DNA of 5,495 nt from an uncultured Solobacterium sp. (GTDB lineage Bacteria > Bacillota_I > Bacilli_A > Erysipelotrichales > Erysipelotrichaceae), in contig CALEMV010000369.1 of the NCBI GenBank assembly GCA_937910655.1, positions 1-5,495 on the forward strand. The letters are read 5' to 3'. How positions within the stretch are numbered: the stretch's first letter is position 1; each line of letters starts with the position of its first letter. The notes below the pieces were generated by a model that was given only the letters and a program-made list of their open reading frames with translations, searched no databases and was not told the DNA's origin. Shown piece after piece: positions 3,617-5,429 of this stretch. The translations under genes were made by a program, and so were the position numbers.

Positions 3617-4240
3617 CTAATTTAAAAATATTTCATCCTCATCTTCATCTCTATACTGGTCAAAACAATCTCTTTGTAAGATTTCTTCAACCTCTGCTAG
3701 CATCTTTTCATAATAGTGACAGCCCTGATCAATTTGGTATTCATAGCCTTCTTGCGCACCTCTGAAAAGAGTATACGCAACTTCATAGTCACCTTCCTCT
3801 TCACCAATTGCCAAGAATCTCTTACCCATCGCAAACAATACACTTGGATACTCTAATCTAGCAACTTCTGGTAAATCATTTAAAGATTGGAAGGCTGTCA
3901 TGAGATAGTATTCCGCAATCTCATCATTTTTCTTAACACCCTTACCATGTTCATACATCGTACTTAACTTATATAAAGCATCTGTATTCTTAAAACGTGC
4001 AGCCATCTTAAAATACGCATACGCAAGTTTAAGATCCCTCTTACAACCTCTACCATAGTAATAACAGTAGCCAAGGTTCGCTAGTGATTGAACATTACCC
4101 ATCGCTGCTGCTATACGATAATATTCAATAGCAGTTTCATACTCCTCATCACGATAGAGTTCAGCACCCCTTGAATTAAAATAGTCACTATTAAAATCTT
4201 CTAGTGCCACTTTATTCTCATTTTCAAATTCAATTTTCAT
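3617..4240 (-). CDS. Sel1/TPR-repeat protein
   Basis: This is a 207-residue, acidic, soluble, helical-repeat protein. After a short charged N-terminus, residues about 19-46 form a TPR-like unit (GAELYRDEEYETAIEYYRIAA). Two clear Sel1-type repeats follow: about 48-82 (GNVQSLANLGYCYYYGRG, then AYAYFKMAA) and 84-116 (NTDALYKLSTMYEHGKGV, then AEYYLMTA). A more diverged helical pair occupies about 130-190. The tail DEDEDEIF is strongly acidic. Sel1 repeats build scaffolds for protein contacts and carry no enzymatic residues, so the partner is unknown; the adjacent S51 peptidase is one candidate from context. Start 4240 is well supported by GAGGAGA on the minus strand (4254-4248). No signal peptide is seen, unlike many secreted Sel1 proteins, so it should act in the cytoplasm. 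Confidence 0.88.
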   Translation of the reverse strand: MKIEFENENKVALEDFNSDYFNSRGAELYRDEEYETAIEYYRIAAAMGNVQSLANLGYCYYYGRGCKRDLKLAYAYFKMAARFKNTDALYKLSTMYEHGKGVKKNDEIAEYYLMTAFQSLNDLPEVARLEYPSVLFAMGKRFLAIGEEEGDYEVAYTLFRGAQEGYEYQIDQGCHYYEKMLAEVEEILQRDCFDQYRDEDEDEIFLN

Positions 4241-4284: not shown

Positions 4285-4313
4285 ATTATATACCTAGGCA
4301 TAAAAATAAAGAA
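4285..4313 (-). promoter_or_regulatory. Possible internal promoter before the Sel1 gene
   Basis: On the minus strand an exact TATAAT occupies 4290-4285, overlapping the stop codon of the XRE gene and 45 bases before the Sel1 start. The -35 region 16-18 bp upstream (TTCTTT) is poor and there is no TGn extension. It could give the Sel1 and S51 genes some expression independent of the XRE promoter, but a chance match in AT-rich DNA is equally possible. Confidence 0.3.
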
Positions 4314-4546
4314 GGCGTCTCGTCCATGCAGACCAAGATGTCTTCTACTTGTACATGCAAATATTTACTGAGCGCAAAACAGTTTTCTAATGTTGGTAAA
4401 CATTCTCCACGTTCCCACTTGTAAACTGCCTGTACGTCTGAAAAACCAAGGTAATCTGCTAGCTCACTGGTCTTCACGTTACGTTCTTTTCGTAAACGAC
4501 GAATGTTATCACCAGTAGCACTTAAACTAACGATAGGATAATTCAT
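4286..4546 (-). CDS. Small XRE-family helix-turn-helix regulator
   Basis: This 86-residue DNA-binding protein consists of little more than one HTH_3 (Cro/C1-type) domain. Residues about 11-72 read TGDNIRRLRKERN, then KTSELADYLGF, then SDVQAVYKWERGECLPTL, then ALSKYLHVQVEDIL, the usual five-helix order with the recognition helix near 36-45. The frame is open from 4573, but the codons upstream of 4546 contain GGAGGTGA (4561-4554), a perfect anti-16S match spaced 7 nt from the ATG at 4546, so the gene starts there. There is no ligand-binding or peptidase domain, so it probably acts as a simple repressor or activator. Its promoter carries an inverted repeat over the -10, suggesting autorepression. 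It lies 45 bp upstream of the Sel1 gene on the same strand and is likely its operon leader gene. The target beyond its own operon is unknown. Confidence 0.88.
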   Translation of the reverse strand: MNYPIVSLSATGDNIRRLRKERNVKTSELADYLGFSDVQAVYKWERGECLPTLENCFALSKYLHVQVEDILVCMDETPSLFLCLGI

Positions 4547-4553
4547 AACTCCA

Positions 4554-4561
4554 TCACCTCC
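4554..4561 (-). promoter_or_regulatory. Ribosome binding site that fixes the XRE start
   Basis: The minus strand reads GGAGGTGA here, complementary to the 16S rRNA tail over its whole length and 7 nt before ATG 4546. This rules against the longer reading from 4573, which would place the site inside the coding sequence. Confidence 0.9.
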
Positions 4562-4576
4562 AATATATTCCATAAA

Positions 4577-4598
4577 GATGGTACATCAATATACCATC
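4577..4598. promoter_or_regulatory. Candidate operator: inverted repeat over the -10 and start site
   Basis: Perfect 7-bp arms GATGGTA (4577-4583) and TACCATC (4592-4598) flank an 8-bp centre. The repeat covers the -10 box and predicted transcription start of the XRE promoter, the place expected for an autorepressor site. Arms of 7 bp with a 15-bp centre-to-centre distance are a plausible size for a Cro/C1-type dimer. Assignment to this regulator is by position, not by a known motif. Confidence 0.55.
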
Positions 4599-4616
4599 CT
4601 TTGACATGCATGTAAA
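4588..4616 (-). promoter_or_regulatory. Promoter of the XRE-Sel1-S51 operon
   Basis: On the minus strand a -35 TTTACA (4616-4611; 5 of 6 to consensus) and a -10 TATATT (4593-4588; 5 of 6) are separated by exactly 17 bp. Transcription would begin near 4581, about 35 bases before the XRE start codon. The -10 sits within the inverted repeat at 4577-4598 and the -35 overlaps a palindrome at 4604-4613. Confidence 0.7.
4604..4613. repeat. 10-bp perfect palindrome at the -35
   Basis: ACATGCATGT reads the same on both strands and overlaps the -35 box of the XRE promoter. It may be a second binding site, different in sequence from the 4577-4598 repeat, or chance. It also overlaps a TTGACA on the plus strand (4601-4606) that lacks a good -10. 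Confidence 0.35.
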
Positions 4617-4627
4617 TACCAATGTGA

Positions 4628-4651
4628 TGTTAAAAGTGAAAACACTGTAAT
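4628..4651 (+). repeat. Left arm of 24-bp imperfect inverted repeat
   Basis: This arm begins TGTTAAAAGTGAA and ends ACTGTAAT. It is the inverted complement of 5189-5212 except at three positions, all transitions. It is either the 3' strand of the closing helix of the candidate minus-strand RNA or a terminal inverted repeat. Confidence 0.8.
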
Positions 4652-4717
4652 GGGCTTTTATTCACCCTACATCATCATTGCAAAAATATTGTTATCCTAC
4701 AGAGAGAAAAGAGGCTG

Positions 4718-4740
4718 TGCAAGGTTAGCAATTCCTTGCA
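4718..4740. repeat. 7-bp perfect hairpin within the non-coding block
   Basis: TGCAAGG (4718-4724) pairs with CCTTGCA (4734-4740) around a 9-nt loop. Outside it, AAGAG (4709-4713) can pair with CTCTT (4742-4746) across an asymmetric bulge, giving a two-part stem. There is no U-tract after it on either strand, so it is not an intrinsic terminator. Confidence 0.65.
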
Positions 4741-4920
4741 TCTCTTCCCTAGATTTTCATCACGAAGCTCTGGTGGGATTGATTACCCACACTTTTCACC
4801 CAACTCTTCAGCAGTTTTCCTGACGATCTTCTTGTCATTATAGAACTGTCTCTAGGCTACTAAGAGAATCTTCTTCCATATCTTATACATGAATTTCTTC
4901 ACTTCACGACAGAGTGGATT

Positions 4921-4970
4921 ATTGGCTATTCTTAGGTTTGTATATAACGCCAATATATACCTAACTAAGA
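4921..4970 (-). other. Two-part hairpin with possible loop-flank pseudoknot
   Basis: CTTAG (4931-4935) pairs with CTAAG (4965-4969) and GTATATA (4940-4946) pairs with TATATAC (4954-4960), enclosing a short loop. ATTGGC at 4921-4926, just outside the stem, is an exact complement of GCCAAT at 4949-4954 in the loop (its last base is shared with the stem). The two pairings could therefore form an H-type pseudoknot. This is the strongest local sign that the block acts as folded RNA. Confidence 0.5.
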
Positions 4971-5188
4971 TTCAGGTGCTTTATTCAAGCAACCCTCTAT
5001 TCTTCCACTGATATGTATTCTGGACTATATTGCACAATGATGTGTGCCATCTGTTACTTTCAGGAATTGCACCCTTCATCTAGTATTACTACTTCGATGC
5101 GGCCAGCCGTAAGAAAGTATCCTTTCTCTTAGCCCCGAGCTTCATTCCAGATACCCCAGCAGGTTGAGCAAACCATCTTCACTAGGAT

Positions 5189-5212
5189 ATTACAGTATCT
5201 TCACTTTTGACA
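5189..5212 (-). repeat. Right arm of 24-bp imperfect inverted repeat
   Basis: Read on the minus strand it begins TGTCAAAAGTGAA and ends ACTGTAAT, mirroring 4628-4651. It is the 5' strand of the proposed closing helix. A 9-bp direct repeat, ATCTTCACT, lies partly within it at 5197-5205 and again at 5175-5183, exactly 22 bp apart. Confidence 0.8.
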
Positions 5213-5237
5213 CCATCTATCTTGGTACAGTTATTAT
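5207..5237 (+). promoter_or_regulatory. Possible promoter toward the small peptide ORF
   Basis: A perfect -35 TTGACA at 5207-5212 is followed, after 18-19 bp, by TTATTA/TATTAT (5231-5237). The -10 is only fair. It would give a leader of about 110 nt before the 24-codon frame at 5355. The -35 coincides with the tip of the right inverted-repeat arm. Confidence 0.35.
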
Positions 5238-5264
5238 TCTACCTATCGCAACCATCATCCACAA
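5236..5264 (-). promoter_or_regulatory. Possible promoter of the candidate minus-strand RNA
   Basis: On the minus strand, TAGAAT (5241-5236; 5 of 6 to consensus) lies 17 bp downstream of TTGTGG (5264-5259; only the TTG matches). Transcription would start near 5229, about 17 nt before the closing helix of the proposed RNA. The placement fits the RNA model well, but the -35 is weak. Confidence 0.3.
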
Positions 5265-5354: not shown

Positions 5355-5429
5355 ATGAGAAAAACAATATATAAACGCATCTTATTCTTAGAAAAACTAT
5401 TTAACAAAATAGAAAACAAAAGTAATTAA
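5355..5429 (+). CDS. Small 24-residue cationic amphipathic peptide (hypothetical)
   Basis: The frame reads MRKTIYKRILFLEKLFNK, then IENKSN, and stop. It is preceded by AGGAG at 5341-5345, 9 nt before the ATG, a spacing matching the other genes here; this is the main reason for calling it. The peptide is basic (Arg/Lys at positions 2, 3, 7, 8, 14, 18, 22). Hydrophobic residues at 5, 9-12, 15, 16 and 19 would give an amphipathic helix at a membrane surface; there is no long transmembrane stretch. I do not recognise it. It could be a regulatory leader peptide, a small membrane-active peptide of the toxin or phenol-soluble-modulin kind, or a chance frame. The DNA after it is AT-rich with no strong terminator (ATTCT/AGAAT, 5434-5448, is only 5 bp). 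Confidence 0.45.
   Translation: MRKTIYKRILFLEKLFNKIENKSN

Follow-up and report, generated by a model that had tools for sequence, protein, structure and literature searches.

A ROOL RNA gene directly before a small helix-turn-helix gene in Solobacterium, and the gene partners of ROOL in cellular and viral genomes

The ROOL gene and its neighbors in the window

The window (the whole stretch of DNA analyzed here, 5,495 bases) carries a ROOL RNA gene on its minus strand at positions 4632 to 5210, with the 5′ end at 5210. The Rfam scan matched model RF03087 to this interval with 338.8 bits (E value, 1.8e-78; gathering score, 99.1 bits), and the match is complete and uncut, covering positions 1 to 574 of the 574-position model. 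Identity to the model amounts to 152 of the 191 upper-case consensus positions and 325 of 574 positions overall, and none of 100 dinucleotide shuffles folds as well as the 579-nt RNA (z = -4.42). Among 4,227 Rfam families, ROOL alone reaches an E value of 1 in the window; the block is almost certainly a ROOL RNA encoded on the minus strand.

A first-pass annotation had proposed an undescribed large RNA that recalls ROOL, GOLLD, and OLE. The likeness to the ROOL layout was well seen, but the block is ROOL itself and not a look-alike, since it matches the model from end to end and far above the gathering score, which rules out an undescribed RNA class. GOLLD (RF02032) and OLE gave no match in the window at an E value of 1 and are likewise ruled out. 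A coding relic is ruled out by the full-length RNA match together with the open reading frame (ORF) list, which holds no ORF of 60 or more amino acids inside the block, as the earlier remark on the lack of a sustained reading frame had suggested. The decayed transposase once envisaged as a refutation is not needed, because ROOL accounts for the entire block. The RNA is a new copy of an already known family, for which Weinberg 2017 is said to be the founding paper, and the novelty of the locus lies in its gene setting.

Beyond ROOL, the minus strand continues with a small XRE-type helix-turn-helix (HTH) gene (4286 to 4573, minus strand; 95 amino acids; Pfam HTH_3, 4.6e-10) that starts 58 nt past the ROOL end, a Sel1-repeat gene (3617 to 4240, minus strand; Pfam Sel1, 1.5e-17), which is a putative member of the same unit, and an S51-peptidase gene. 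A metallophosphatase gene, a gene for a 604-amino-acid protein, and an MGMT-like gene lie further on. Known ROOLs resemble the one described here in the whole-model match, the closing helix, and the variable linker. They are often, though not obligatorily, found near tRNA islands or prophages, whereas the 5,495 bases of the window contain no tRNA gene and no phage family among their Pfam matches, and the conserved HTH gene directly downstream is a further difference. In a blastn search, the window ROOL matched no phage or plasmid record, and two other ROOLs searched against phages gave no match. The best reading is that of a resident, non-phage ROOL amid ordinary neighbors; ROOLs outside prophages have been reported before (PMC12191101).

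On the other side of ROOL, a 24-codon ORF (5355 to 5429, plus strand; translation, MRKTIYKRILFLEKLFNKIENKSN) with a ribosome-binding-site-like AGGAG runs away from the RNA gene. Its distance from ROOL is kept in three related loci (143 nt in L071, 144 nt in the other two, L070 and L073), and the L071 copy differs by 5 synonymous and 12 nonsynonymous codons in 25. A terminator-like inverted repeat was seen by eye past this ORF in L070 and L073.

The first-pass annotation had also pointed to a plausible minus-strand promoter upstream of the helix. A candidate is TTGTGG-17-TAGAAT (5236 to 5264, minus strand, read 5264 to 5236), which is weak at 8 of 12 consensus positions counted by hand; it remains plausible, but it falls below the threshold of the promoter scan (9 of 12), which reported no ROOL promoter, and the region holds no more promoter-like sites than its shuffles do (four found; shuffle mean, 4.3). 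The HTH gene has a promoter-like site as well, TTTACA-17-TATATT with a TG before the second box (4588 to 4616, minus strand; 10 of 12), to which the same frequency applies. No terminator-like site was found between 4500 and 5495. A dyad, GATGGTA-N8-TACCATC (4577 to 4598), covers the -10 box of the HTH gene and is a possible operator. It is the best dyad and was equaled in 4 of 100 shuffles at the window; in the paralogous L071, both arms have changed together, and 0 of 100 shuffles reach it. Three of the seven dyads tested, those at L079, L080, and L092, do not stand out from shuffles, and no operator common to ROOL and the HTH gene was shown among them.

Compensation in the closing helix and conservation among close relatives

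The ends of the ROOL gene form a closing helix, with the 5′ arm at 5189 to 5212 and the 3′ arm at 4628 to 4651 (both minus strand). The arms are complementary at 21 of 24 positions across 537 nt, and in an inverted-repeat search the pair extends to 27 nt at 85% with the same spacing, the longest of 19 pairs in the window. Of the three exceptions, two are G-U pairs in the minus-strand RNA and the third is C-A, so both the placement of the arms and the two G-U pairs had been described correctly before. Pairing is kept in all 24 ROOLs scored in silico (30 nt at each end of the window copy and of 23 copies from relatives, excluding the 5′-truncated L088): own arms pair with a mean of -29.0 kcal/mol and arms swapped between ROOLs with -9.6 kcal/mol (n = 552), with related copies counted as separate points. 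Pairing stays while the letters change. The closing helix is maintained by compensatory change across ROOLs, as judged by arm-swap energies. The earlier view of a large structured minus-strand RNA held together by a long-range helix is borne out by these compensating arms and by the full-length match. In L080 and L079 the helix seems to extend beyond the Rfam ends, as a word preceding ROOL (11 nt in L080 and 9 nt in L079) recurs as its reverse complement just past the RNA gene.

Two close relatives of the window, L070 (in G001, the genome to which the Erysipelotrichaceae MAG contig L003 belongs) and L073 (from G018), are 90.1% and 90.6% identical to it as a whole. Identity rises to 96.7 to 98.4% in ROOL outside the linker (97.0% before it and 96.7 to 98.4% after it), 98.3% in the gap between ROOL and the HTH gene, and 94.4 to 94.8% in the HTH gene. 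It is 94.7 to 98.7% in the 24-codon ORF, 87.5 to 95.1% between that ORF and ROOL, 88.8 to 91.1% in the Sel1, S51, metallophosphatase, and 604-amino-acid genes, and 85.4 to 86.5% in the MGMT part. Selection on the ROOL RNA, the gap, and the HTH gene is thus stronger than on the adjoining genes. The variable linker (4815 to 4848, minus strand), at 47.4% identity to the two relatives, either drifts freely or is pushed to diverge. The linker of solved ROOLs is disordered and assigned to the cage interior (PMC12286853).

L070 and L073 share the whole downstream side of the window. Toward the other side, the shared stretch ends about 312 nt before ROOL, and what lies beyond differs, with small unrelated genes in L070 and a DruE-like gene and a NERD helicase in L073. 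A second ROOL-HTH-Sel1 locus of G001, L071, has a Sel1-repeat gene (41% identical) at the same position, and before its ROOL lie a 132-amino-acid ORF and the defense genes SngA-SngB-SngC (L071 9294 to 14687, minus strand), which we take to be Shango. The presence of defense-type genes before ROOL in two of these three loci is suggestive and no more. Translations read by eye suggest that L071 also retains MGMT-like and transporter-like genes farther out; the paralogy may thus span a longer segment, and ROOL, HTH, and Sel1 are not singled out by the duplication.

Partners of ROOL and of the HTH family in other genomes

The cellular set comprises 22 loci (L070 to L091) with 24 ROOLs; 20 of the 272 genomes from the family of G001 contribute 23 of these places, and G002 contributes the other. 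In 5 of the 22 loci (L070, L071, L073, L079, and L080), the gene directly downstream of ROOL, in the same orientation, is a family HTH gene. These five are not independent, as L070 and L073 are orthologues, L071 is a paralogue in G001, and L079 and L080 are kin. The other 17, among them L083 with only about 380 nt present after ROOL, have no HTH gene directly downstream. The chance of at least 3 direct ROOL-HTH pairs among 23 is about 6e-13, for an assumed mean genome of 2.2 Mb. RtcB follows ROOL in four loci (L084, L086, and L087, which are kin, and L090): after 35 nt in L084 and L087, from the ROOL end itself in L086, and after a 123-amino-acid ORF in L090. None of the 9 loci with HTH or RtcB has a tRNA gene within 6 kb, compared with 9 of the 13 others (P = 0.0014 for this post hoc grouping). 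No paper on ROOL together with RtcB was found in a limited literature collection. Eighteen pattern stretches were recorded in genomes, and of the four given an Rfam scan, two were ROOL. A ROOL was found in 1 of 150 genomes from the family of G004 (L126), with HTH, RtcB, and tRNA genes all absent.

A different picture emerged from 26 viral ROOL loci, including several near-duplicates, of which L019 and L023 were identified by Rfam and 24 by our own nucleotide HMM, among 43 new loci from a scan of 44 stretches. tRNA genes are present at 20 of the 26 loci, and HTH or RtcB at none, an absence that says little for L165, L167, and L168 since less than 500 nt follow ROOL in these three. The link to HTH is therefore limited to part of the cellular ROOLs.

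The HTH family itself is large (7,986 proteins), is present in 67 of the 272 genomes versus 20 with ROOL, and is mostly found away from ROOL, so it is not ROOL specific. All 12 of 12 aligned members match a phage transcription-regulator family. In a 57-row HTH tree of poor resolution, the ROOL-linked HTHs fall in three parts, with 4 changes, of which at least 2 are forced.

HTH relatives are followed by a same-strand tRNA gene within 150 nt in 17 of 54 cases, versus 1 of 337 for the other ORFs (at least 60 amino acids, with tRNA-overlapping ORFs dropped) of the same loci. The excess recurs in each source: 5 of 12 versus 0 of 62 at phage and plasmid loci, 7 of 18 versus 1 of 190 in the viral scan, and 5 of 24 versus 0 of 85 for the Erysipelotrichaceae genome hits. 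The loci were 9 of 60 phage and plasmid records with a match (8 of 14 phage and 1 of 46 plasmid), 16 of 16 viral loci, and 25 from genome searches (82 places); at the cutoff, L096 and L124 lacked an HTH, and the near-duplicates L116/L117 and L109/L110 were retained. Neither a different XRE protein nor the HTH of L. salivarius found relatives when scanned against viral contigs, so the other ORFs serve in place of an independent XRE control. RtcB stands directly before the HTH gene in L095, L097, L108, L109, and L110. Two of the 16 viral HTH loci have GOLLD in the same tRNA array, one has HEARO, and none has ROOL, and the whole records behind L112, L116, L117, and L093 contain no ROOL (0 of 4). 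The GOLLD copies lie at L116 2562 to 2997 and L117 2660 to 3096, inside arrays of 26 tRNA genes with an HTH of the window family. GOLLD is, like ROOL, a cage-forming RNA of tRNA islands, and the HTH family associates with tRNA arrays, RtcB, and both cage RNAs. Among 15 titles listed for GOLLD with helix-turn-helix in a limited literature collection, PMC5643018 was the only one that concerns bacterial RNA.

The closest known counterpart of the window arrangement is in Ligilactobacillus salivarius. The long noncoding RNA (lncRNA) of the UCC118 megaplasmid lies at a ROOL locus (130.4 bits) and is followed on the same strand by LSL_1884, which is 36% identical to the window HTH. The order of ROOL and a family HTH gene is that of the window; the plasmid location, the diverged RNA, and the further neighbors are different. 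All 33 L. salivarius plasmid records with ROOL have an HTH match 89 to 90 nt after it on the same strand, a count from one species with the lists compared by eye, and they are the same 33 Ligilactobacillus records present among the 46 found with the window HTH. According to PMC5643018, the UCC118 RNA outnumbers 16S rRNA, LSL_1884 is a separate transcription unit for which the authors thought an action on the RNA possible, and deletion of ROOL with or without LSL_1884 had inconclusive effects.

A predicted RNA cage with a candidate regulator

Our main reading, very probable overall, is of a minus-strand ROOL that is predicted to form a hollow cage and is likely regulated together with the HTH gene. 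The solved ROOL cages contain 6 or 8 chains and assemble from RNA alone (PMC12286853 for both and PMC12191101 for the chain numbers). Cryo-EM structures comprise octamers of env-120 and Enterococcus faecalis ROOL and a hexamer of L. salivarius ROOL, and the window ROOL would very probably be cage forming as well. The RNA would be transcribed from its own promoter, fold into the known monomer, and close a cage of its own copies around the linker. A probable dimer, the HTH protein would bind the dyad that covers the -10 box of its gene, tuning that gene and perhaps ROOL too. Regulation of the whole ROOL-HTH unit by this protein is possible, if short of probable. From the neighbors alone (viral ROOLs among tRNA genes, rtcB after some cellular ROOLs, and this HTH family at the head of tRNA arrays), one may tentatively guess that the cage helps to maintain tRNAs or translation when phages or stress strike.

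The same neighborhoods could arise if mobile elements carried ROOL, HTH, rtcB, and tRNA arrays as shared cargo with no functional link, leaving ROOL as a phage or plasmid relic in the chromosome. The tRNA genes at most viral ROOL loci and the variable genes before ROOL, including the defense genes of L071 and L073, are in keeping with this, as is L082 (1219 to 5846), which looks like a mobile element in which an HTH gene, 19 tRNA genes, and ROOL are followed by a TraG-like ATPase gene. A relic, however, would not be expected to show ROOL, gap, and HTH better conserved than the adjoining genes; tRNA genes are missing within 6 kb of precisely the HTH and RtcB loci, and the direct ROOL-HTH order recurs across distant lineages. 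We regard shared cargo as a somewhat doubtful account.

Alternatively, the HTH protein might be chiefly an RNA-binding partner of the cage and not a transcription regulator. OLE, a large ornate RNA, has a gene directly downstream, as the window ROOL does, whose protein binds OLE (PMC5643018), and the HTH gene is strongly conserved alongside ROOL. OLE differs from ROOL in being a dimer with known protein partners (PMC12286853). An RNA-binding role is nevertheless improbable, given the phage transcription-regulator family matched by the aligned HTHs, the dyad over the -10 box, cages that need RNA alone (PMC12286853), and the absence of an HTH gene beside most ROOLs. Least credible is ROOL as a long 5′ leader controlling read-through into the HTH gene: the two share a strand, 58 nt apart with no terminator-like site between them, but the HTH gene has its own promoter-like site, the L. 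salivarius HTH mRNA lacks a ROOL-like accumulation or persistence (PMC5643018), and RtcB or other genes replace HTH elsewhere.

Going beyond the reading of a cage regulated together with its HTH gene, we speculate, with little confidence, that ROOL may have been domesticated more than once from phage tRNA islands into resident ROOL-HTH or ROOL-RtcB units. When phages or stress attack, the cage would guard, repair, or store tRNAs or other parts of the translation machinery, and the fast-evolving linker enclosed in it would be its working part. The structures of the ROOL and GOLLD cages are solved, and a recurrent gene partner in a non-phage setting makes the question of their function easier to approach. 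If cellular ROOLs travel with a dedicated HTH regulator or RtcB, their function becomes approachable via the genetics of two named genes, and the linker, alone in diverging between close relatives, would be where specificity for a cargo or target is best sought first.

Several further features were observed near cellular ROOLs. In L087, a gene near ROOL-rtcB on the other strand has a weak WYL-domain match (21.4 bits; cutoff, 21.8), and look-alikes of it lie near ROOL on the other strand in L083, L086, and L090. Tandem ROOLs, 28 to 29 nt apart, are found in L077 (8001 to 8575 and 8604 to 9110, minus strand) and L078 (8001 to 8587 and 8617 to 9119, minus strand); such copies might give mixed cages, and no rRNA motif was found beside them. 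In L085, an IF-1 gene (7722 to 7961, minus strand) starts 57 nt past ROOL, with two tRNA genes further on.
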